Shown here piece after piece: positions 46,753 through 59,003 of a stretch of DNA of 64,000 nucleotides (position 1 is the first letter of the stretch; every line of letters begins with the position of its first letter). This stretch comes from Labedella gwakjiensis (lineage in GTDB: Bacteria; Actinomycetota; Actinomycetes; Actinomycetales; Microbacteriaceae). The stretch covers positions 3,162,001-3,226,000 of the forward strand of contig NZ_PYAU01000001.1 in NCBI RefSeq assembly GCF_003014675.1. Direction: 5' to 3'. A model generated the notes under the pieces. That model worked only from the letters and a program-made list of their open reading frames with translations. It ran no database searches and had not been told where the DNA came from. A program made the position numbers and the translations under genes.

Positions 46753-48108
46753 ATGGACAAGCAGCGGGACTTCGTGCTTCGAACGATCGAGGAACGCGGC
46801 GTCAAGTTCGTCAGGCTGTGGTTCACGGATGTCGTGGGCACGCTCAAGTCCGTCGCCATCGCTCCGGCCGAGGTCGAGGGCGCTTTCGCGGAGGGCCTCG
46901 GTTTCGACGGCTCCGCGATCGAGGGTCTGACGCGGTCCTTCGAGTCCGATCTCCTCGCGCTGCCGGACCCGTCGACGTTCCAGATCCTGCCATGGAGGGG
47001 CGAGATCGACCCCACGGCTCGCATGTTCTGCGACATCACCACGCCGGATGGTCAGCCCGCCGTCGCGGACCCCCGCAACGTTCTGAAGCGCACTCTCGCG
47101 AAGGCCGCGGAAGCGGGGTTCACGTTCTACACGCACCCCGAGATCGAGTTCTACCTGCTGAAGTCGGCCCAGTACGGGGCAGAGGGGCCAGTGCCCGTCG
47201 ATCACGCCGGCTACTTCGACAACGTGCCGGGCGGCACCGCTCACGACTTCCGCCGCCGCTCCGTGCGCATGCTCGAGGATCTCGGCATCTCGGTCGAGTT
47301 CAGCCACCACGAGGCGGGTCCCGGTCAGAACGAGATCGACCTGCGCTACGCGGACGCGTTGACGACGGCCGACAACATCATGACCTTCCGCACGGTCATC
47401 AAGGAGGTCGCGATCGAGCAGGGCGTGCACGCCACGTTCATGCCGAAGCCGCTCGCGCTCCACCCGGGCAGCGGGATGCACACCCACATGTCGCTCTTCG
47501 AGGGCGATTCGAACGCCTTCTACGAAGCGGGTGCCCAGTACCAGCTCTCGAAGGTCGGCCGCCAGTTCATCGCCGGCCTGCTCACGCACGCCCCCGAGAT
47601 CACCGCCGTGACGAACCAGTTCGTGAACTCCTACAAGCGGCTCTGGGGAGGCGTCGGCACCGGAATGGTGTCGGAGGCTCCGAGCTTCGTCTCGTGGGGG
47701 CACAACAACCGCTCCGCCCTCGTGCGCGTGCCCCTCTACAAGCCCAACAAGGGCCAGTCCGCGCGCGTCGAGTACCGCGCCATCGACTCGGCCGCGAACC
47801 CGTACCTGGCGTTCTCGCTCATGCTGGCTGCGGGCCTCAAGGGCATCGAGAAGGGCTACGAGCTCCCGCCCGAGGCGGAGGACAACGTCTGGAGCCTCAC
47901 GGACACGGAGCGTCGCGCCCTCGGCTACGACAGCCTGCCGGCGAGCCTCGACCGAGCGACGAGCCTCATGGAGCGCTCCGAGCTGGTCGCCGAGACTCTC
48001 GGCGAGCAGGTGTTCAACTACGTCCTCCTGAACAAGCGTCAGGAGTGGCAGCAGTACCGGGCCCAGGTCACGCCGTTCGAGCTCGAGACGAACCTGCAGA
48101 TCCTCTGA
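46753..48108 (+). CDS. glnA2: Glutamine synthetase, GlnA2 type
   Basis: Type I glutamine synthetase of 451 residues, starting at ATG 46753 after AGAGGAG. It has LGFDGSAIEGLTRSFESDL, the glutamate site (NEIDLRYADALTTADNIMTFR) and the ATP-site HTHMSLFEGDSNAFY. It lacks the Asn-Leu-Tyr adenylylation motif that GlnA1 carries, so it is not expected to be a GlnE target. In M. tuberculosis GlnA2 (Rv2222c) also sits beside glnE (Rv2221c). Its physiological substrate may be glutamate or another amine. Confidence 0.93.
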   Translation: MDKQRDFVLRTIEERGVKFVRLWFTDVVGTLKSVAIAPAEVEGAFAEGLGFDGSAIEGLTRSFESDLLALPDPSTFQILPWRGEIDPTARMFCDITTPDGQPAVADPRNVLKRTLAKAAEAGFTFYTHPEIEFYLLKSAQYGAEGPVPVDHAGYFDNVPGGTAHDFRRRSVRMLEDLGISVEFSHHEAGPGQNEIDLRYADALTTADNIMTFRTVIKEVAIEQGVHATFMPKPLALHPGSGMHTHMSLFEGDSNAFYEAGAQYQLSKVGRQFIAGLLTHAPEITAVTNQFVNSYKRLWGGVGTGMVSEAPSFVSWGHNNRSALVRVPLYKPNKGQSARVEYRAIDSAANPYLAFSLMLAAGLKGIEKGYELPPEAEDNVWSLTDTERRALGYDSLPASLDRATSLMERSELVAETLGEQVFNYVLLNKRQEWQQYRAQVTPFELETNLQIL

Positions 48109-48112
48109 CCCC

Positions 48113-51109
48113 GTGAGACGCGAGCTGGCCACCCTGAGCGGGCTCGCTCGGGTGGGATTCACCGCCTTGTCGGACGCCCGGGCGGCGCTCGACGAGCTCG
48201 ACTCTCTGTCGATCGTGGGAGATGTCGAGATCGTCGGCGACTTCGCCGAGGTCGCCGACCCCGATGCGGCCCTCGGCGGTCTCCTCGCGCTGGCGCGGAG
48301 TCATCCGGACGAGGTCCGCCGTGTGTGTCGCGGGGTCGAGGGGCGTCGGACGCTGCTTCAGGTGCTCGGGGCGTCTCGAGGGCTCGCCGACTTCCTCCAC
48401 CGCCATCCCGAGTGCCTCGACGCCATCGAGCAGCCGGTGCGCCGACTCCCGGAAGCCATCGAGTTGCGGACGTCGCTCCTCGAGAGCGTCGGCGCGGTCG
48501 ACGGTGTGTCCCGGGACGGAACCGAGGACGAGTGGGGCGCACTCCGCACGCGATACCGTCGCCTCCTGACCATGATCGCGGCCTTCGATCTCACGTCGAG
48601 ATCACCGGTCTCGGTGGTCGCGCGCGTCTCGGAGTGTCTCGCGGACCTCGCGGGCGCGGCACTCGACGCCTCCCTCGCGGTTGCGCGACGTATGGTCTCG
48701 AGCGAGACGCCGCGCCCCGGAGTCTTCCCTGCAGGAGAGGTGCGCTCGACCCGACTCGCCATCATCGGAATGGGGAAGGCCGGCGCGTCCGAGCTCAACT
48801 ACGTGAGCGACGTCGACGTGATCTTCGTCGGGGAACCGGATGGTGACCGGATCTCGTCAGCGCGGGCGATCGATATCTCGACCCGGCTCGCCGTCCTCAC
48901 GATGCGGGGGATCGCCGAGCCGGCGATCGAACCTCCCCTCTGGGAGGTCGACGCCAACCTCCGCCCGGAGGGCAAGGCCGGGGCCCTCGTACGCACTCTC
49001 GATTCGCACCTCGCGTACTACGACCGTTGGGCGAAGAGCTGGGAGTTCCAGGCCCTGCTGAAGGCACGGTCCCTCGCCGGCGACCGCGATCTCGGTGACG
49101 CCTATGTCGCCGCCGTGAGCCCGCGCGTGTGGAACAGCTCGTCTCGTGACGGCTTCGTCGAGTCGGTCCAGAAGATGCGTGAGCGGGTCACCGCCCACAT
49201 CCCGTCGGAGGACGTGCACCACCAGCTCAAACTCGGGCCCGGAGGGCTCCGCGACATCGAGTTCACGGTGCAGCTGCTCCAGCTCGTCCACGGGTCGAAC
49301 GACGAGGGCGTCCGCCAGCGTGGCACGTTGGCTGCTCTCGAGGCGCTCGCCTCCCACGGCTACATCGGGCGGACCGAAGCAGCCGACTTCGCCGAGGACT
49401 ACCGGGTCCTGCGCGTGCTCGAGCATCGTCTGCAACTCACGCGGCTGCGCCGCACCCATCTCATGCCTCGCGACGACGACGCCCTCCGGGCGCTCGCTCG
49501 CGGCTCGCGGTTGGCGTCGACGGCTGGCGAGCTCATCGTCCTGTGGGAGCGCACGAAGCACAGTGTGCGGTCTCTCCATGAGCGGCTGTTCTATCGTCCG
49601 CTCCTCACAGCCGTCGCTGCCCTTCCTGACGACGAGTTCGTCCTCACTCCCGCACAGGCCGGAGCGCGGCTCGCCGCCATCGGTTTCCACGATCCCGCCG
49701 GTGCCTTTGCACACATCGCCGCCCTCACATCCGGCGTCTCACGGAAGGCGACCATCCAACGACTCCTCCTCCCGGTTCTGCTGCGGTGGTTCGCCGAGGG
49801 GGCAGACCCCGACTACGGTCTCCTCACGTTCCGCCGCGTGAGCGAATCCCTCGGCGATTCACACTGGTTCCTGCGGATGCTGCGGGACTCCTCCGGTGCC
49901 GCCGAGAGGTTGACGCGGGTACTCTCGGGCTCGCGCTACATCGGCGAGCTGATGGACCGCTTCCCCGAAGCCGCCGCGTGGCTCGGCGACGACGGAGAGC
50001 TCCGCGCGAAGCCGCGCGCGGTGCTCGACGAGGAGATGCACGCGATCCTCTCGCGGCACGAGGACCTCACGAAGGCGGCAGCGTCGATCCGTCGGGTCCG
50101 GAGACGAGAGATCCTGCGTCTGGCGATGTCGTCGGTGCTCGGCATCAACAGTCTGCGCGACATCTCGGACGCACTCACCGATGTGACGACGGCGACGCTG
50201 AGCGGCATGCTGGGCGCACTCCGCGACGCCGCTGTCGACGACCCGCCCTTCGAGTTCGCGATCATCGGTATGGGGCGGTACGGGGGCCGCGAGCTCGGAT
50301 TCGGCTCGGACACGGACGTCATCTACGTGTTCCGACCGACGGGGGAGCGCGCCGACGAGGTGCCGCGCGCGGCCACGCGGCTCGTGCATGAGCTCGCCCG
50401 CCTGACCGACGACAGCCGGCTTCCCCTCGACCTCGACATCGGGCTGCGGCCCGAGGGGAAGAACGGGCCCGTCACACGGTCGCTCGACAGCTACAGGGCC
50501 TACTACGAGCGCTGGTCGCTCACATGGGAGGCCCAAGCGCTCCTCCGTGCGCGCCCGGTGGTCGGAGACGCGGCGCTCCTGGACGACTTCGGCGCCCTCG
50601 CCGACTCCGTGCGCTATCGCAAGGACGTGAGCGACGCCGACGTGCGCGAGGTGAAGCGCATCAAGGCCCGGGTGGAGAGTGAACGGCTTCCGCAGGGAGC
50701 CGACCCCGCCCGCCATGTCAAGCTCGGTCGCGGCTCGCTCAGCGACGTCGAGTGGCTCGTCCAGTTGATCCAGCTGGAACACGCCGCCGAGATCCCGGCG
50801 TTGCGGACCACGTCGACGAGGGAGGCCCTCGCCGTCGCCCGCGACGAGGGGCTCGTCGAGCCGGAGGACGCCGAGCTCCTCGATGCGGCCTGGGTGTTCT
50901 CCTCCCGGGTGCGGTCGGCCATGACGCTGTGGCTCAACCGCACGACCGACGTGCTTCCGTCCGACAGACGCGGCCTGGACGGGATCGCGCGCATCCTCGA
51001 GTACCCGCCCGGCTCTGCGAGCGATCTCGAGGAGGACTACCTCGCCGTCACGAGACGGTCCCGCGCTGTCTTCGAGCGCCTCTTCTACGGGATACCCGAC
51101 ACGGACTGA
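48113..51109 (+). CDS. glnE: Glutamine-synthetase adenylyltransferase/deadenylylase GlnE
   Basis: Bifunctional enzyme that adenylylates and deadenylylates glutamine synthetase in response to nitrogen status. It has 998 residues and starts at GTG 48113, four bases after glnA2. It carries two nucleotidyltransferase domains: MGKAGASELNYVSDVDVIFV near 225 (deadenylylase half) and MGRYGGRELGFGSDTDVIYVF near 725 (adenylylase half), each followed by a helical regulatory region. Its expected substrate is GlnA1 (Tyr402) encoded at 57007-58431. Confidence 0.96.
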   Translation: MRRELATLSGLARVGFTALSDARAALDELDSLSIVGDVEIVGDFAEVADPDAALGGLLALARSHPDEVRRVCRGVEGRRTLLQVLGASRGLADFLHRHPECLDAIEQPVRRLPEAIELRTSLLESVGAVDGVSRDGTEDEWGALRTRYRRLLTMIAAFDLTSRSPVSVVARVSECLADLAGAALDASLAVARRMVSSETPRPGVFPAGEVRSTRLAIIGMGKAGASELNYVSDVDVIFVGEPDGDRISSARAIDISTRLAVLTMRGIAEPAIEPPLWEVDANLRPEGKAGALVRTLDSHLAYYDRWAKSWEFQALLKARSLAGDRDLGDAYVAAVSPRVWNSSSRDGFVESVQKMRERVTAHIPSEDVHHQLKLGPGGLRDIEFTVQLLQLVHGSNDEGVRQRGTLAALEALASHGYIGRTEAADFAEDYRVLRVLEHRLQLTRLRRTHLMPRDDDALRALARGSRLASTAGELIVLWERTKHSVRSLHERLFYRPLLTAVAALPDDEFVLTPAQAGARLAAIGFHDPAGAFAHIAALTSGVSRKATIQRLLLPVLLRWFAEGADPDYGLLTFRRVSESLGDSHWFLRMLRDSSGAAERLTRVLSGSRYIGELMDRFPEAAAWLGDDGELRAKPRAVLDEEMHAILSRHEDLTKAAASIRRVRRREILRLAMSSVLGINSLRDISDALTDVTTATLSGMLGALRDAAVDDPPFEFAIIGMGRYGGRELGFGSDTDVIYVFRPTGERADEVPRAATRLVHELARLTDDSRLPLDLDIGLRPEGKNGPVTRSLDSYRAYYERWSLTWEAQALLRARPVVGDAALLDDFGALADSVRYRKDVSDADVREVKRIKARVESERLPQGADPARHVKLGRGSLSDVEWLVQLIQLEHAAEIPALRTTSTREALAVARDEGLVEPEDAELLDAAWVFSSRVRSAMTLWLNRTTDVLPSDRRGLDGIARILEYPPGSASDLEEDYLAVTRRSRAVFERLFYGIPDTD

Positions 51110-51126
51110 CGGTCAGGACGTCCGTG

Positions 51127-51149
51127 CCGGGTCGATTCGGATCACCCGG
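51127..51149. terminator. Hairpin between glnE and the peroxidase remnant
   Basis: CCGGGT (51127-51132) pairs with ACCCGG (51144-51149), and GAT (51134-51136) with ATC (51141-51143), around TCGG with one bulged base. It lies 17 bases beyond the glnE stop and covers the stop of the convergent peroxidase remnant. Confidence 0.5.
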
Positions 51150-51759
51150 GGAGGTTCGTCTCCTCGAGGCCGTGGCCGGACATCGCGATGAGATCGGGCA
51201 CCGTGAAGTCGTGCTCGACGACCGATGGAAGAAACGGTCTCCATGTCGGCTGATTGCGGAGGTACGACGACGCGTCCTGTTGGAGGAGGCCGATGAACAC
51301 CTCCGCGACGATGCGTCCGCCCACGGGGCCGAGGTGGCGGCCTCCGTCGCCGAGCACACTGGCCTCCTTGAGGATGTAGTACCACAGGGGAGCCGCGCCA
51401 CCGTCCGGCAGACCCAGGTCGTCATCGCTCAGGACGGGTGCTCCCATGTGTGCCGCGACCACTTGGCCTGCGGGCAGAAGGAGTCGCGCGCCCCTGGTCA
51501 GATTGCGGTCGATCAGGGACGGCCGATTGCCGGCGATCTCGGGAGGAAGCGCAGCGAGGACGGCAGATCGTCCTCGTCGTCGTGATGCCCGATGAGCATG
51601 AGCCGACGCTGCGCCGGCGATCAGTTGTTCAGTCGTCCGGGGGGCGCGGATCTGCGGTGTTCCGACGGCCCCCTCTTCTTTCGTCTTCATCGAGGATCTC
51701 CAGGATTGCGCGCCGATCACCCTGCGGGGTCGGCGGAAGAACCCCTCCGAGAGGGGCAC
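51142..51759 (-). pseudogene. C-terminal remnant of a heme (animal-type) peroxidase
   Basis: Open frame of 205 codons from GTG 51759. Residues from about 75 onward carry the C-terminal signature of bacterial heme-peroxidase-family proteins: SLIDRNLTRGARLLLPAGQVVAAHMG, then PLWYYILKEASV and LGPVGGRIVAEVFIGLLQQDASSYL. The family is normally several hundred residues longer, and the N-terminal peroxidase core with the heme ligands is absent. The first 70 residues are basic and unrelated. I therefore call it a truncated remnant, although a start site with an AAGGGG ribosome site makes expression of the fragment possible. Confidence 0.6.
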
Positions 51760-51771
51760 GATGAGCCCCTT
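51753..51771 (-). promoter_or_regulatory. Ribosome-site-masking hairpin at the peroxidase-remnant start
   Basis: On the minus strand AGGGGC (51771-51766) contains the ribosome site and pairs with GCCCCT (51758-51753), with the GTG start in the seven-base loop. If transcribed it would hide the start from ribosomes. Confidence 0.35.
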
Positions 51772-52420
51772 CTGACAGGGGCGGCGAGGGGCCTCGAAGA
51801 CCAGCGGAGCGGAGAGAGGGAGGCGGCTCGACGGTGGGATCGCTGAGATGATAGCAATGCCCTCACTTTCCCGTCAACAGTCGATCTCGGCGTCCGTCAG
51901 CTCCCCGAGAGTGGCTCCTCGGACGGTCGGGTATCGCGCCCAGGACTCTCCGTCCGCGACACGCGGGTTTCCGGCAGGTTGCGCGTTCATTCCGCCCGCG
52001 TGAATTTCGTTGGTCGTCGGGGCCTCTCGTGGAGTATCGACGGGGAGCCCTCTGGGATGGTGTTTGCGTGACGCATTGATCATTTCCCTGGTCAGAGCGA
52101 TAATTCCTCATCTTTTCCGGCGACGGACCTCCGTTTGTCGATTCCAGGGTCGATCAGGCTTTTCGATCGATTCCGGCTATCCGAGTCGATGGAATCGCCG
52201 TCTTCCCCGACCGGGGAGCCCGTCACGATCGCGCCGTCGCCGGGATCCGACCGTCCGACGGCTGGTCGTGAATCGATCGATATCGTCCCGGCGCGTGTCC
52301 CCCATTCGGCCGGGTTGTGACCTCCGAAAGCGGGGTGTTAGACATCAGCCACCCGAGTCGCACACTTCCTCACCGTCGCGGAACCCACCCCATTCCCCTC
52401 GTCGAGATGTGGAGTCGTTC
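51760..52420. other. 660-base intergenic region without a firm gene
   Basis: Between the peroxidase remnant and the polysaccharide operon. It includes a 38- to 69-codon minus-strand frame ending ARYPTVRGATLGELTDAEIDC (stop near 51874), whose coding status is uncertain, and a plus-strand promoter-like site at 52065-52104. Base composition is lower in GC than in the flanks. A 61-codon plus-strand frame (52135-52320) shows no similarity that I recognise. Confidence 0.6.
52065..52104 (+). promoter_or_regulatory. Promoter of the polysaccharide operon with an overlapping palindrome
   Basis: TTGATC (52076-52081) and GATAAT (52099-52104) are spaced by exactly 17 bases, the best sigma-70-like promoter in the window. 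Just upstream, TGCGT and ACGCA flank one base (52065-52075), giving an 11-base palindrome that touches the -35. The predicted leader to the GT2 start is about 310 bases. Confidence 0.6.
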
Positions 52421-53956
52421 GTGTTCATCGTCATCCTGCAATTGAGGCACATGCTCGGAGGTCACCCCGAGCTCTACATGTTCGTCGTGTACTCAGCCTT
52501 CATCTGGGCCCTCTGGCTCGTGAAGGTAGTGCTCTCGTCCCGGTATCGCCCGTACACCGGGTCGTTCACCGGCACGACGAGCGTGGTGGTCCCCGTGGTG
52601 GATGAGCCGCTCGACCTCTTCCGCGAGGTGCTCGACCGCATGGTCGAGCAGCGCCCTGGTGAGATCATCGTCGTGATCAACGGGGCGCCCAACGTCGGCC
52701 TCGTCGAGGTCTGCGAGGAGTTCGCGCCCCTCGTCCGGTGGGTGCACACCCCCATCCCCGGGAAGCGGAACGCGGTCCGTGTCGGCACGGAACTGTCGTC
52801 CGGAGAGATCGTCGTCCTCGTCGATTCCGACACCATCTGGACCGACGGTACGCTCGCCGAACTCGTCAAGCCGTTCGCCGAATCGCGAGTGGGCGGCGTC
52901 ACGACGCGGCAGCGCATCCTCGAACCGACGCGCAGCTGGATCACACGCTGGGCCGACTGGCTCGAGAACTCACGGGCCCTCTACGCCATGCCGGCGCAGA
53001 GCGTGCTCGGCCAGGTCGGATGCCTTCCGGGACGCACGATCGCCTTCCGTCGATCGATCCTCGTCCGTGTCATGGACCGTTTCATGACGGAGAGATTCAT
53101 GGGGGTGTTCCTCGAGGTGTCGGATGACAGGACGCTGACCAACCTCACGCTCAAGGAGGGGTACAGCACGGTGTACCAGTACACGAGCCTCGTCTACACG
53201 GACGCGCCGCTTCAGGTGAAGAAGCTCTTCAAGCAACAGCTGCGCTGGGCCAGGGGGAGCCAGTACAACACGTTGAGGATGTTCCCGTGGATGGCCGTGC
53301 ACGCGCCGGTGCTCTGCTTCTTCTTCGTGATGGACATCGTGCTGCCGTTCCTCCTGGCCGGCGTGATCCTGGGGTGGGCGTACCGGGCGCTCACGGGCCA
53401 GGGTCAGGACCTCTACGAGGGATTCCTCGCCGAATTCGGCTTCGGTACCGGGCTGCTCTATGTTCTCGGGCTCATGGTCGCCTCGACCGTCGTGAGCATG
53501 GCCATCCGGCAGATGCGCCACCTGTCGGAGAAGCCGACGGACTTCTTCCGCCTCCCTGTCTTCATCATCGTGTCGACCTTCTTCCTCATGCCGATCCGCA
53601 TCATCGGCTTCTTCCGAATGGCGCACGCGAGCGGCTGGGGGACACGCAGCGGAGCCTACGGCGGGGCGGTCGACGACCCCGACCCCGTGGAGCTCGCGAG
53701 TTCGCCGGCAGCTGTGATCGACGATGCGTCGCGCGCGGACGCCCGGATGGTGTCGGAGGCCCCGGGAACCGGAGGCGAATCGACCGAGGCGCGATCCACG
53801 ACCGCCATCGCGATTCTCGAGCGTCCCGCGACGAACGCCGTCGCACGGCGTCGGCGGCCCGTGCGCGCGAACCGAAAGCGTCCCAACCTCTATGCCGGAA
53901 TCCCGTACCTCATCGGCGCCGTCGTCTTCTCGATCCAGGTCGTGTTCATTGTCTAG
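52421..53956 (+). CDS. Processive family 2 glycosyltransferase (polysaccharide synthase)
   Basis: Membrane synthase of 511 residues. GTG 52421 is preferred because GGAG (52411-52414) precedes it; GTG 52409 is an alternative. The first membrane segment is at about 21-38. The GT2 core has VVVPVVDEP, DSD at 135-137, SDDR at 234-237 and the processive signature QQLRW at 272-276. Four or more membrane segments follow (about 296-320, 343-360 and 380-397). A Ser/Thr/Ala-rich linker (420-485) leads to a last membrane segment. The motifs are those of hyaluronan, cellulose and NodC-type synthases, which polymerise and export in one step. The product is unknown; with the ugd gene downstream a glucuronic-acid polymer is a plausible inference. 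Confidence 0.9.
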   Translation: MFIVILQLRHMLGGHPELYMFVVYSAFIWALWLVKVVLSSRYRPYTGSFTGTTSVVVPVVDEPLDLFREVLDRMVEQRPGEIIVVINGAPNVGLVEVCEEFAPLVRWVHTPIPGKRNAVRVGTELSSGEIVVLVDSDTIWTDGTLAELVKPFAESRVGGVTTRQRILEPTRSWITRWADWLENSRALYAMPAQSVLGQVGCLPGRTIAFRRSILVRVMDRFMTERFMGVFLEVSDDRTLTNLTLKEGYSTVYQYTSLVYTDAPLQVKKLFKQQLRWARGSQYNTLRMFPWMAVHAPVLCFFFVMDIVLPFLLAGVILGWAYRALTGQGQDLYEGFLAEFGFGTGLLYVLGLMVASTVVSMAIRQMRHLSEKPTDFFRLPVFIIVSTFFLMPIRIIGFFRMAHASGWGTRSGAYGGAVDDPDPVELASSPAAVIDDASRADARMVSEAPGTGGESTEARSTTAIAILERPATNAVARRRRPVRANRKRPNLYAGIPYLIGAVVFSIQVVFIV

Positions 53957-55445
53957 CGCGACGGCACCCCACTGGTGGGCTCCGACGCGATCCGCGGCCC
54001 GCCGGACCACGGTGGCATCGATCGCGTTCGTCACCGCTCTCTCGATCATGACCTACGTCGTGTGGATGTCGCCTGGTGGGAAGAGCACGGTGCAAGCGAT
54101 CCAGGAGGCGCTGTCGCCGACACACCTGCAGATGGAGAACGCCCAGCTCACTGCGACGGTCTCCGGGCTCGAGAAGAAGGTCGCCGACCTCGAGTCCACC
54201 GTCGCGTCGCAAGCGGACCGGGTGGATGCCCTCCTCGCCGAACAGCTCGAGCAGCAGGCGTCATACACCGCTCAGCTCGCCGAGGCGCAGCAGCAGCTCG
54301 TCGACGTGCAGACCCAGCTCGATCAAGCCAACGTTGCTCTCGACGCCGCGCGTTCATCGGGCTCCTCCGGGGGATCGGGTCAGGGCTCGGGCGGCTCCGT
54401 CACGCCGGCCCCGACAGAGCCGGGTGACGGGAACGGCTCAGAAGAGCCGACCCTCACTGCACCGTCGCTCTCGTCCATCCTCGACCCCGACTACCGATAC
54501 GTCGGGATGTACACGGAGCAGGCGCCGTTCAACTGGGCGACGTTCGACAGCACGGCAACGAAGATCGGCGCGTCGCCGAACCTCGTCGGATACTTCGGCG
54601 GCTGGGACGAGGACTTCCGGGCGAATGCTGTGACGAGGGCCTGGGAGCAGGAGCGTGTACCGATGCTCACATGGGAGTCGCGCCCCATCGACTCGAAGAA
54701 CGACGTCATCGACGAACCGGAGTACTCCCTTCCCGTCATCATCGAGGGCGGCTTCGACGACTACCTGCGGCAGTACGCCCGCGACATCGTGGCGACTGGT
54801 CTTCCGCTCGTGATCCGCCTCGACCACGAGATGAACGGGGTCTGGTACCCGTGGAACGAGGTGACGTCGAAAGGGGCGTCCATCAACGGCAACAGCCGTG
54901 GCGACTACGTGAAGATGTGGCGGCACGTCCACGACATCTTCGAGGAGGAGGGGGCGAACGAGTACGTCGGCTGGCTCTGGGCGCCCAACATCGTGAACAA
55001 CCTCCCGTCACTCCAGAAGGATCCGGCGTTCCTCGAGAGTCTTTACCCGGGCGACGAGTACGTCGACTGGGTCGGCCTGTCCGGCTACCTGCGGCCGGCG
55101 TACAAGCCGGGTCAGGAGTTCACGTTCGAGTACACCTTCGGCGAGAGCCTCGATCAGGTGAGGGCTCTCAGCGACAAACCGATCCTGCTCGCCGAGGTCG
55201 GCGCCTCAGAGACGGGTGGCCACAAACCCACGTGGGTGAAGAGCTTCTTCGAAGCGTTCACCGACGAGGCCAACTCGGACGTGATCGGGTTCGCCTGGTT
55301 CAACCTCGCGGTCACGACCTACGTGGAAGGGGAGAGGACCACGAACGACTGGCGAATCGACTCGAGGGCCGACTCGCTCCTCGCCTTCACCACGGGACTG
55401 TCCGATCCACTCGCGGACTTCCGACTCGTACCCACGGGGGAGTGA
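53949..55445 (+). CDS. Membrane-anchored GH26-type glycoside hydrolase with coiled coil
   Basis: Protein of 498 residues from TTG 53949, which overlaps the end of the synthase gene by eight bases. An N-terminal membrane anchor (about 22-40) is followed by a coiled coil (60-135), a Gly/Ser/Pro linker (136-175) and a family 26 (beta-mannanase-like) catalytic domain (about 180-490). The acid/base is Glu294 in LDHEMNG, the nucleophile Glu416 in LLAEVGASE, and GWLWAPN lies between them. GH26 enzymes cut beta-1,4-mannan and beta-1,3-xylan or related glycans. Translational coupling to the synthase suggests it trims or releases the polymer made there; that role is inferred. Confidence 0.88.
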   Translation: MSSATAPHWWAPTRSAARRTTVASIAFVTALSIMTYVVWMSPGGKSTVQAIQEALSPTHLQMENAQLTATVSGLEKKVADLESTVASQADRVDALLAEQLEQQASYTAQLAEAQQQLVDVQTQLDQANVALDAARSSGSSGGSGQGSGGSVTPAPTEPGDGNGSEEPTLTAPSLSSILDPDYRYVGMYTEQAPFNWATFDSTATKIGASPNLVGYFGGWDEDFRANAVTRAWEQERVPMLTWESRPIDSKNDVIDEPEYSLPVIIEGGFDDYLRQYARDIVATGLPLVIRLDHEMNGVWYPWNEVTSKGASINGNSRGDYVKMWRHVHDIFEEEGANEYVGWLWAPNIVNNLPSLQKDPAFLESLYPGDEYVDWVGLSGYLRPAYKPGQEFTFEYTFGESLDQVRALSDKPILLAEVGASETGGHKPTWVKSFFEAFTDEANSDVIGFAWFNLAVTTYVEGERTTNDWRIDSRADSLLAFTTGLSDPLADFRLVPTGE

Positions 55446-55521
55446 CGATGAACACGCCTCACTCGATCCCTGTCGCCACCCCACTCCGTGCCGGAGGACC
55501 CACATCACACTGGAGGACAAC

Positions 55522-56940
55522 GTGAAGAACAGCACCATTCCATCCCCGGAGATCGCGCCGCCGGATGCCGACAGCGCGACGCGGCCGCGCGTCAGCGTGA
55601 TCGGGACCGGTTATCTCGGCGCCACTCACGCGGCCGCCATGGCCGAGATGGGGTTCGAGGTCGTCGGCGTCGACCAGGATCCTCGCAAGGTCGAAGCGCT
55701 GAGCGCCGGGCGCGTCCCCTTCTTCGAGCCGGGGCTGCCCGAACTCATCGAGAAGCACGTGGCGAGCGGCCGCCTCCGGTTCACGACCGATATCGCCGAG
55801 GCGACGGCTGCGTCCGACGTGCACTTCATCTGCGTGGGAACGCCGCAGCAGGCGACGAGCTTCGCCGCGAATCTGAGCTATGTGGAGGACGCGACGGCGG
55901 CGGTGGCGAGGAATCTTACGCATCGCGGACTCATCGTGGGCAAATCGACGGTCCCGGTCGGGACCGCGGCCCGTCTGCGACTCCTCGTCGCTCGCCACGT
56001 CTCGTCGAGCATCGATGTCGAACTGATCTGGAACCCGGAGTTCCTCCGCGAGGGCAAGGCGGTCGACGATACCCTCTCGCCGGATCGGATCGTCCTGGGA
56101 GGGGCGAGTCGGGAGGCCGAGGAGACGATGCGGACGCTCTACGCTGGCCCGATCGGGGCCGGTGTGCCCGTCATCTCCTGCGATCTCCCCACCGCCGAAC
56201 TCGTGAAGGTGAGCGCCAACGCTTTCCTCGCGACGAAGATCTCCTTCATCAACGCGATCGCCGAGGTGTGCGAGGCGGCGGGGGCGGACGTCTCCGTTCT
56301 CGCCGACGCGCTCGGGCACGACGTCCGGATCGGACGCCAGTTCCTCAACGCCGGCCTCGGGTTCGGGGGCGGGTGCCTGCCGAAGGACATCCGCGCGCTC
56401 ATGCATCGCTCGAAGGAACTCGGAGCGCACCGGGCCGCCGGGCTCATGCAGCAGGTCGACGAGATCAACATGGCCCAGCGGCAGTCCGTCATCGACAAGA
56501 CCGTCGCGGCGGCCGGCGGATCCGTCCTCAACCGACGCATCGGCGTCCTCGGGGTGGCGTTCAAGCCCTTCACGGACGACGTGAGGGACTCCCCGGCGCT
56601 CAACGTCGCCGCGGCCCTGCACCTCCGCGGGGCACAGGTCACCGTGCACGACCCGGAGGCGAATGGCACGGCTCGGTCGAACTTCCCGACCCTGAGCTAC
56701 GCGACAACGGCCCGGGATGCGGCCATCGGCGCTTCGGCACTGCTCGTCCTCACCGAATGGCCGGACTTCGGAGCGGTCTCACCGGATGAACTCGGCGAAC
56801 TCGTCGAGAACCGTGTCGTGATCGACGCACGCAATTGCCTCGACGCGGCGCGGTGGAGCGCGGCCGGCTGGCGCGTCATCGCCCTCGGACGGGAGACGAC
56901 GGTGCCTGCTGAGGCTCACGCGCAATCGGTCCTCGTCTAG
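55522..56940 (+). CDS. UDP-glucose 6-dehydrogenase
   Basis: Oxidises UDP-glucose to UDP-glucuronic acid with two NAD+. It has 472 residues and starts at GTG 55522 with GGAGGA upstream. The NAD fold begins VSVIGTGYLGATHAAAMAEMGFEVVGVD (24-51). The catalytic Cys285 is in GFGGGCLPKDIRAL, with WNPEFLREGKAVDD (170-183) and the C-terminal domain GVLGVAFKPFTDDVRDSP. A GDP-mannose dehydrogenase is less likely. It supplies uronic-acid donors and is the third gene of the operon, 76 bases after the GH26 gene. Confidence 0.93.
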   Translation: MKNSTIPSPEIAPPDADSATRPRVSVIGTGYLGATHAAAMAEMGFEVVGVDQDPRKVEALSAGRVPFFEPGLPELIEKHVASGRLRFTTDIAEATAASDVHFICVGTPQQATSFAANLSYVEDATAAVARNLTHRGLIVGKSTVPVGTAARLRLLVARHVSSSIDVELIWNPEFLREGKAVDDTLSPDRIVLGGASREAEETMRTLYAGPIGAGVPVISCDLPTAELVKVSANAFLATKISFINAIAEVCEAAGADVSVLADALGHDVRIGRQFLNAGLGFGGGCLPKDIRALMHRSKELGAHRAAGLMQQVDEINMAQRQSVIDKTVAAAGGSVLNRRIGVLGVAFKPFTDDVRDSPALNVAAALHLRGAQVTVHDPEANGTARSNFPTLSYATTARDAAIGASALLVLTEWPDFGAVSPDELGELVENRVVIDARNCLDAARWSAAGWRVIALGRETTVPAEAHAQSVLV

Positions 56941-56947
56941 TGCACAG

Positions 56948-56987
56948 CCGAAGGGCCCGCCACCGGAATCGGTGACGGGCCCTTCGG
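56948..56987. terminator. Bidirectional terminator between ugd and glnA1
   Basis: CCGAAGGGCCCGCCACCG (56948-56965) pairs at 17 of 18 positions with CGGTGACGGGCCCTTCGG (56970-56987) around GAAT. It lies between two convergent genes and closes the polysaccharide islet. Confidence 0.88.
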
Positions 56988-57006: not shown

Positions 57007-58431
57007 TCAGACCCCGTAGTAGAGCTCGAACTCGAAGGGGTGGGGACGCTGCGCGAGGGGCTTGATCTCCTTCTCGCGCTTGTAGTCGATCCACGTCTCG
57101 ATGAGCTCGGGGGAGAAGACCCCACCCGCGAGGAGGAACTCGTGGTCCGCCTCGAGGGCGTCGAGCGCCTCGCCGAGCGACGCCGGCACCTGCGGGATGA
57201 GCTTGGCCTCCTCGGGCGGCAGCTCGTAGAGGTCCTTGTCCACGGGCTCGTGCGGCTCGATGCGGTTCTTGATGCCGTCGAGGCCGGCCATGAGCTGCGC
57301 GGCGAAGGCGAGGTACGGGTTGCCCGACGCGTCCGGCGCACGGAACTCGATGCGCTTGGCCTTCGGGTTCGTTCCCGTGATGGGGATGCGGATCGAGGCC
57401 GAACGGTTGCCCGCCGAGTAGACGAGGTTCACGGGAGCCTCGAAGCCGGGGACGAGGCGGTGGTACGAGTTCACCGTCGGGTTCGTGAAGGCCAGGACGG
57501 CGGGGGCGTGCTTGAGCAGGCCGCCGATGTACCAGCGGGCGACGTCGGAGAGACCGCCGTAGCCGTTCTCGTCGTAGAACAGCGGCGTGCCGTCGTTCCA
57601 CAGCGACTGGTGGGTGTGCATGCCCGAGCCGTTGTCGCCGAAGAGCGGCTTCGGCATGAACGTGGCCGTCTTGCCCCACTGCTCGGCCGTGTTCTTCACG
57701 ATGTACTTGAACTTGAGGATGTCGTCAGCCGCGTGCACCATCGTGTCGAAGCGGTAGTTGATCTCGGCCTGTCCGCCGGTACCGACCTCGTGGTGGGCGC
57801 GCTCGAGGATGAGGCCAGCGTCGATCAGCTTGAGGCTGATGTCGTCGCGCAGGTCGGCCTGCTTGTCGACGGGGCTGACGGGGAAGTATCCGCCCTTGTA
57901 CGGGGTCTTGTTGGCGAGGTTTCCGCCTTCCTCCTCGCGGCCCGTGTTCCACGCTCCCTCTTCGGAGTCGACCGAGTAGAACGCCTGGTTCTGCGTCACC
58001 GAGTAGCGCACGTCGTCGAAGATGTAGAACTCGGCCTCGGGGGCAAAGAACGCCGTGTCGGCGATGCCGGTGGAGGCGAGGTACTTCTCAGCCTTCTTGG
58101 CGACCTGGCGCGGGTCCTTCGTGTAGATCTCGCCGTTGCGCGGGTTGTAGATGTCGAAGACGAGGATGAGGGTGCGCTCGACCCGGAAGGGGTCGATGTA
58201 TGCCGTGGTCACATCCGGGATGAGCTGCATGTCGGACTCGTGGATGTTGGCGAATCCACGGATCGAGGAGCCGTCGAACAGCTGGCCGACGGTGAAGAAC
58301 TCCTCGTCGACCGTGGAGGCCGGGATGTTGAAGTGCTGCTGAACACCGGGGAGATCGGTGAAGCGGATGTCGAGGAACTTGACATCCGTTTCCTTGATGA
58401 ACTTGAGAACTTCGGAAGAATCACTGAACAT
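57007..58431 (-). CDS. glnA: Glutamine synthetase type I (GlnA1)
   Basis: Main ammonia-assimilating glutamine synthetase, 474 residues. The ATG at 58431 ([29 protein letters not shown]) is the family start. The motif FDGSSIRGF, the ATP-site [29 protein letters not shown] and the adenylylation site [10 protein letters not shown] with Tyr402 are all present, so it should be controlled by GlnE. It is controlled at the DNA level by a GlnR box 77 bases upstream. Confidence 0.97.
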
Positions 58432-58491
58432 GTGACGATCTCTCCATCGTTGATTGCGTCGAGTACGACTGCACGGGCGCAGCCTCGCCCC

Positions 58492-58497
58492 AGCGTA
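58492..58497 (-). promoter_or_regulatory. Probable -10 element of glnA1
   Basis: TACGCT on the minus strand (58497-58492) lies ten bases downstream of the GlnR box and about 60 bases ahead of the glnA1 start. No consensus -35 is needed if GlnR activates. Confidence 0.5.
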
Positions 58498-58507
58498 GGG
58501 AGTGGGG

Positions 58508-58545
58508 GTTTCCCGACCGTGACACCTATGTTTCCGGGATGTTAC
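58508..58545 (-). promoter_or_regulatory. GlnR binding box upstream of glnA1
   Basis: Read on the minus strand from 58545, the order is GTAAC, six bases, GAAAC, six bases, GTCAC, six bases, GAAAC. This is a complete match to the actinobacterial GlnR consensus of two gTnAC-n6-GaAAC half sites. It covers the -35 region of glnA1 and also lies 24 bases ahead of the divergent RDD gene. Family knowledge: GlnR activates glnA when nitrogen is short. Confidence 0.85.
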
Positions 58546-58568
58546 GGACTCGTCGATAGTATCGAATC

Positions 58569-59003
58569 GTGCCCCGTGAACCCCGAGAACCCGCTGATGC
58601 AGCACCGTCCGAGTGGCCGGGGAAAAGATTGGGATTACCGGCGACGGGCCGCCTCAGCGTCGCCCGACTGGGCCGCCGCATCGCAGCGCTCCTCGTCGAT
58701 CAGGCCCCTGCGTACCTCTTGGCGTTCGCGTTCTTCCGCTCTTCCGACGGGATCATCGACGGCCTCGCGCTCACCCTGATCTTCGCGGCGATGCAGATCG
58801 TGTTCATCCCGACGATCGGGGGCAGCCTCGGGCACCGACTCCTGGGCATGCGCGTCGTGGCTGTCGACGGCGGATGGATCGGCCTCTGGCGGCCGATCGT
58901 CCGCACGGTTCTGCTGCTCCTCGTGATACCCGCGGTCATCTGGGACGCGGATCAGCGCGGGCTTCACGACAAGATCGCCGGAACCGTCCTCGTTCGGTAC
59001 TGA
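58569..59003 (+). CDS. RDD-family membrane protein
   Basis: Small membrane protein of 144 residues from GTG 58569. [21 protein letters not shown] opens the RDD domain (the Arg-Asp pair is in RIAALLVD), and [29 protein letters not shown] plus [17 protein letters not shown] are conserved family blocks. Three membrane segments are seen. Function is unknown. It is divergent from glnA1 and shares its GlnR-box region, as does Rv2219A in the M. tuberculosis neighbourhood. Confidence 0.9.

Follow-up and report, generated by a model that had tools for sequence, protein, structure and literature searches.

What might a bacterium build with a glycosyltransferase, a glycoside hydrolase and a nucleotide-sugar dehydrogenase encoded in one tight row? 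The question is raised by Labedella gwakjiensis (Microbacteriaceae), whose genome comprises 3.84 Mb in one contig. Between glnE and glnA1, in the window analysed here (the whole stretch of 64,000 nucleotides from NZ_PYAU01000001.1, positions 3,162,001 to 3,226,000), lie a reverse-strand gene remnant, an AT-richer leader and then three genes on the + strand. In coordinates of the window, the three are:

52421-53956, + strand: GT2-family synthase, predicted to be processive, 511 aa, GTG start (Pfam, motifs, hydropathy)
53949-55445, + strand: GH26-family enzyme, 498 aa, TTG start inside the GT2 gene (Pfam, hydropathy, model)
55522-56940, + strand: putative UDP-glucose 6-dehydrogenase (UGD), 472 aa, GTG start, 76 nt after the GH26 gene

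We propose that these genes form a self-contained synthase-dependent exopolysaccharide module, in which a chain containing glucuronic acid (GlcA) is made and then trimmed at the cell surface, and we give this reading a probability of roughly 0.55. The gene families, the gene overlap, the conservation, the anchor, fold and catalytic residues of the hydrolase, and the pattern of its Arg382 were all computed and are described first.

An initial annotation of this DNA had suggested a three-gene pathway for a synthase-type polymer. The suggestion is borne out in that the genes are conserved together, usually at this junction, and in that hyaluronan synthases (HAS) come nearest among solved processive synthases. 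An alignment of the GT2, scanned against GTDB genomes, yielded 312 relatives, of which the best 80 were kept (L067-L146). All three genes occur in order on one strand in 76 of these 80 loci; the remaining four (L121, L138, L144 and L146) reach the end of a contig first, such that every locus long enough (76/76) is complete. Two records have a broken frame, L094 in UGD and L135 in GT2, and L122 and L123 represent the same genome. The eight-base overlap reported between GT2 and GH26 is exact (53949-53956), and a GH26 start 8 nt inside the GT2 gene recurs in 68 of the 78 loci with both genes (TTG in 62, ATG in 5, GTG in 1). The start lies 14 or 17 nt inside GT2 in seven others, and no start near the GT2 end was found in L103, L135 and L141. 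Translational coupling of the two genes is predicted. GT2 was also sought in a further sample of 199 Microbacteriaceae genomes, and matches at E <= 1e-90 were found in 33 of them (19 of 85 genera); the two samples overlap in at least G003, G007 and G034. In a phylum-wide sample of 396 genomes (5 other Microbacteriaceae among the rows listed), L. gwakjiensis itself provides the sole match at E <= 1e-70, so the GT2 family looks narrow.

The GT2 protein matches PF13641 and PF00535. The QQLRW signature attributed to it is present (residues 272-276), as are DSD (135-137) and DD (235-236, within SDDR), and DSD, SDDR and QQLRW are invariant in 35 aligned GT2 sequences. Hydropathy shows one N-terminal transmembrane (TM)-like segment, the GT2 domain, C-terminal TM-like segments, a low-complexity linker and a final C-terminal TM-like segment. 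From this layout and the motifs, the GT2 domain is probably cytosolic, in a protein that is membrane-embedded and processive. When a profile of the 35 sequences was compared with solved chains, HAS were the only processive synthases matched (3.2e-18), in a comparison confined to solved structures.

The GH26 protein matches PF02156 (3.7e-11, 43.4 bits versus a cut-off of 20.2). It had been described as membrane-anchored with a coiled coil, which agrees with a TM-like segment at residues 22-40 (hydropathy) and a helix at 57-137 in the model, read as a coiled coil; a linker and a TIM barrel (about 171-495) follow. The further label of a beta-mannanase-type hydrolase gives way to another relative. 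By both fold and sequence, the enzyme looks nearest to the mixed-linkage beta-1,3-1,4-glucanase CtLic26A (2bv9/2cip). The catalytic residues E294 and E416 are kept in 78 of 78 sequences. Where CtLic26A has Trp187, the aligned residue here is an invariant Arg382, and the present enzyme differs also in its membrane anchor and long helix. Arg382 divides the UGD-linked GH26 proteins from the 5 other GH26 proteins compared, and we propose that it would hold the carboxylate of a uronic acid. Two weaker GH26 matches fall outside this comparison, as the alignment of L044 stops short and the frame in L049 has no match. In L077 and L117 the catalytic domain of GH26 seemed to be missing, but this was an artefact of the overlap filter, and the full genes are present.

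The third protein belongs to the nucleotide-sugar dehydrogenase family, with TIGR03026 above its cut-off; the best equivalog is TuaD at 384.5 bits, below its cut-off of 700. In 7 of 7 Leifsonia loci (L068, L070, L073, L078, L081, L082 and L092), UGD is followed on the same strand by galU. The GalU of L068 scores above the TIGR01099 cut-off and the other six copies are 90-98% identical to it; the operon in Leifsonia may thus be four genes long. Two Cellulomonas loci have a phosphoglucomutase gene nearby, on the opposite strand. UGDs are also encoded in the triplet-negative genomes G001 and G002, and likewise in G006 and G039. Together with a second UGD-family gene in L. gwakjiensis itself (see below), these make the operon UGD look like a dedicated extra copy.

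The composition and linkage of the polymer, its export, its cutting and its release would, in our proposal, be as follows. UGD would convert UDP-glucose to UDP-glucuronic acid. The membrane GT2 would join UDP-GlcA and a second UDP-sugar, either UDP-glucose (UDP-Glc) or UDP-N-acetylglucosamine (UDP-GlcNAc), into an alternating beta-1,3/beta-1,4 chain and push it through its own transmembrane channel, in the way that hyaluronan synthase and the synthase of the pneumococcal type 3 capsule do. Outside, GH26, mounted on its TM anchor and coiled-coil stalk, would cut the emerging chain, setting its length and releasing it. Mixed beta-1,3-1,4 chains are what the nearest solved relative of the hydrolase cuts, and Arg382 is the residue proposed for the uronic carboxylate. 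We put forward only tentatively a more specific version, in which the operon is a portable pathway whose synthase and coupled GH26 on its stalk act jointly as a single machine that makes and sizes a cellobiuronan-like glycan. GH26 would then represent a new specificity, an endo-hydrolase of a GlcA polymer with a carboxylate-binding Arg in place of the CtLic26A Trp.

Several observations weigh against the proposed module. No NCBIfam equivalog fits GT2, the best being NodC at 106 bits versus a cut-off of 550 (best E-value among the 35 members, 2.4e-34); the PgaC-IcaA cut-off is also unmet (56.7 versus 422.3 bits). The AlphaFold model of GT2 is poor (mean pLDDT 59.1) and its Foldseek list is headed by HAS at TM-scores of just 0.34-0.38, so donor specificity is unreadable from the model. 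With the second UGD-family gene, a 434-aa frame, UDP-uronic acid could have another source besides the operon UGD. Two remoter GT2-GH26 pairs (G039 and G006) lack a UGD over about 8 kb on either side, with UGD encoded elsewhere in both genomes. The contrast at Arg382 rests on just 5 other sequences, the 78 GH26 sequences are not independent (L122 and L123 are one genome, and many are from Curtobacterium), and the residue is placed on the active-site side by deduction from strand 374-381 and Tyr380. As a separate observation, the G039 pair is adjoined by an acyltransferase-3/SGNH fusion gene (L058:11614-13806).

The likeliest alternative is chemically a sub-case of the GlcA-chain module, although its product would be a polymer already known: ordinary hyaluronan or a close analogue (GlcNAc/GlcA), with GH26 as its endo-hexosaminidase. 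The has operon, hasA-hasB(-hasC), combines a GT2 synthase and a UGD, and hasC is the counterpart of galU. The present operon shares that combination, its nearest solved synthases are HAS, and galU stands beside UGD in Leifsonia. In contrast to has, it carries a GH26 gene between the two, and a long linker in its synthase leads to an additional C-terminal TM-like segment. Against this alternative, no gene for UDP-GlcNAc supply was found among 10 flanking proteins scanned at the loci away from the gln genes, GT2 has PGRTIAFR where Xenopus HAS1 has SGPLGMYR in the alignment, and a lichenase-type GH26 would need to accept the N-acetyl group. We know of no GH26 hyaluronidase, although no search aimed at one was made. 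We regard this alternative as unlikely.

Somewhat less likely still is a neutral beta-glucan or mannan product, with UGD serving another wall polymer and the genes merely co-expressed. Solved GH26 relatives do act on neutral glycans, and the GT2-GH26 pairs without a neighbouring UGD fit such a product; however, UGD follows in 76 of 76 loci long enough and accompanies the pair on a plasmid as well (see below), and Arg382 separates the UGD-linked enzymes from the others compared. It is very improbable that GH26 is a degrader of plant polysaccharides that adjoins the synthase by chance, even with hosts such as Curtobacterium including plant isolates, a lichenase as the nearest solved enzyme, and Curtobacterium GH26 being placed under other plant polysaccharides in the relevant part of PMC8565777. 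The conserved 8-nt overlap with the synthase, the TM-like anchor and long helix, and the presence of GH26 in 76 of 76 full loci all argue against it. We give equally little credence to a GH26 barrel that, rather than trimming, fixes the chain to the envelope as a transglycosylase or binding scaffold: the anchored enzyme presumably sits next to the synthase, and retaining GH families are capable of transglycosylation, but both catalytic Glu residues in 78 of 78 sequences argue against a pure scaffold, though they do not separate transfer from hydrolysis.

The GlcA-chain module has partial parallels elsewhere. In the pneumococcal type 3 locus (ugd, wchE/cps3S, galU, pgm), the account excerpted from PMC3182177 has ugd and the synthase suffice for a Glc/GlcA polymer, given galU and pgm homologues elsewhere. 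Shared with it are a single beta-glycosyltransferase, here predicted to be processive, and a dedicated UGD (both in 76 of 80 loci), as well as accessory genes in some relatives, namely galU in Leifsonia and pgm near the two Cellulomonas loci (other strand). Here, however, the synthase comes first and UGD last, with an overlapping gene for a membrane-anchored GH26 between them, whereas that excerpt on the type 3 locus names no hydrolase (PMC3182177). A synthase with an extracytoplasmic glycoside hydrolase in one operon is known from the cellulose (BcsZ), Pel (PelA) and poly-N-acetylglucosamine (PNAG; PgaB) systems, according to the portion of PMC7112194 drawn on here; the hydrolase and the operon make-up differ from ours, and the main text of that survey mentions none of Microbacteri, hyaluron, Curtobacterium or Leifsonia. 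In the wps-1 cluster of Actinoplanes missouriensis, as outlined in part of PMC13390465, a GH26 (WpsE) likewise belongs to an actinomycete exopolysaccharide cluster, although one of 11 genes (WpsA-WpsK) with sulfotransferases; to the knowledge of its authors, a Wzx/Wzy cluster with a GH26 was previously uncharacterised. We place the present operon among the synthase-dependent polysaccharide systems, as a variant, and no published account of it was found among the literature matches listed, which come from a corpus with most subscription journals outside its coverage. If our proposal is true, a common group of soil and leaf bacteria has a minimal route to an acidic surface polysaccharide that has gone unrecognised, and GH26 genes filed as plant-degrading in Curtobacterium (in the part of PMC8565777 cited above) may belong to synthesis. 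The operon would then also offer a compact system for chain-length setting in Gram-positive synthase-dependent pathways, and Arg382 a testable residue for GlcA recognition.

How did the operon come to lie where it does? The flanking genes in the window are:

46753-48108, + strand: glnA2
48113-51109, + strand: glnE, the upstream flank (Pfam)
57007-58605, - strand: glnA1, the convergent downstream flank (Pfam)

The gene order first described (glnA2, glnE, remnant, leader, GT2, GH26, UGD, glnA1) is correct, and its coordinates were confirmed. Of the 80 loci, 64 have glnE upstream and 60 have a convergent glnA1 downstream. In the Microbacteriaceae sample, both flanks were listed on one contig for 32 of the 33 GT2-positive genomes, L. 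gwakjiensis included, and GT2 lies between them in 30 of the 32 (the exceptions being G080 and G006). The junction is thus the usual site of the triplet. It is not the invariable one, as neither flank is present in 16 of the 80 loci, including 7 Leifsonia loci, Amnibacterium, Pseudactinotalea and Cellulomonas.

The initial annotation further held that the genes had opened a gln block, as an islet splitting it, which implied recent insertion. Neither part fits well. Of the 166 GT2-negative Microbacteriaceae genomes, 105 have both flanks on one contig among the matches listed; all 105 keep glnE and glnA1 convergent, yet the gap is below 300 nt in just 55 of them. The median gap is 189 nt and 37 exceed 1 kb, so the junction appears to be a variable slot in which many triplet-negative genomes hold other DNA. 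To illustrate, two genomes of the same genus lack the triplet and have an acyltransferase-3 gene (PF01757) in its place (L147:5736-6896; L148:3642-4775). Surface-glycan genes may have a hotspot here. As to recency, pairwise distances, taken over the window and those 29 of the 80 loci in which every gene is complete, track those of glnE, with r = 0.96 for GT2, 0.92 for GH26 and 0.94 for UGD, exceeding all 200 permutations; glnA1 gives r = 0.74. glnA2 correlated with nothing (r 0.01-0.09; 0.06 versus glnE), owing to one wrong sequence from L100, a locus without glnA2, which has 39% mean identity to the rest and on which the other correlations do not depend. The arrangement looks old within Microbacteriaceae on these distances, although the correlation could also reflect co-transfer of the whole locus, glnE being linked. 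The triplet also occurs on the 164 kb plasmid pTCL of Curtobacterium sp. TC1 (NZ_CP081962.1, L170), which is typed non-mobilizable and is the sole plasmid record of 72,556 matched at E <= 1e-30. Overlaps of 8 nt and 4 nt are found there, among unrelated annotated neighbours. Given the distances and the plasmid copy, the unit appears to be long established in the family and also portable.

The region ahead of GT2 contains the following elements:

51860-52420, + strand: AT-richer intergenic leader upstream of GT2
52315-52343, + strand: promoter-like pair TTGTGA - 17 nt - TTAGAC, found by eye
52351-52356, + strand: ACCCGA element upstream of GT2
52366-52383, + strand: 18-bp dyad TTCCNCNNYGNNGNGGAA, 37 nt before the GT2 start

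That the leader is AT-richer holds (G+C 0.60 at 52000-52499 versus about 0.68), with a stretch of glnA1 equally low (0.598 at 58000-58499). No Rfam model reached its gathering score on the leader, the one sub-threshold match having 19 bits versus 50. Upstream regions of the window, pTCL and the 80 loci (82 in all) were compared with 80 control regions inside GT2. The dyad, with at most one mismatch, occurs in 54 of 82 upstream and 0 of 80 control regions, the plasmid copy among the former, and 32 of 34 exact matches to TTCCNCNNYGNNGNGGAA sit 29-32 nt before the GT2 start. It is below threshold in 28 of 82, including L067 (Labedella phragmitis), the Leifsonia loci and the Cellulomonas group; a degenerate form is seen in L067 and Leifsonia. 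The ACCCGA element is found in 61 of 82 upstream and 6 of 80 control regions. Judged by eye, the candidate promoter pair lines up with a -35/-10-like pair that recurs ahead of GT2 in relatives; it was not picked by a strict consensus sigma-70 scan. The dyad may be an operator or leader element. A wider regulon is not claimed: of five other pattern matches in the same genome, four lie inside likely coding frames by position, and the locus centre of the fifth (L162, other strand) likewise falls in a likely coding frame.

One further feature lies outside the operon:

51142-51759, - strand: remnant related to An_peroxidase-family genes (animal-type haem peroxidase, PF03098)

Its description as a peroxidase remnant is upheld by a 568-aa PF03098 protein from another genome, part of which is 48% identical to residues 68-199 of the remnant. 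The remnant has no match of its own in the Pfam and NCBIfam scans, none in the PDB and none in the congeners G001 and G003. Of 149 other genomes of the family that were sampled, 5 have similar sequences, for the most part in frames of 548-642 aa. The gap between glnE and GT2 that holds it is 1317 nt long here and 329-613 nt in the other 29 genomes with GT2 at the junction.
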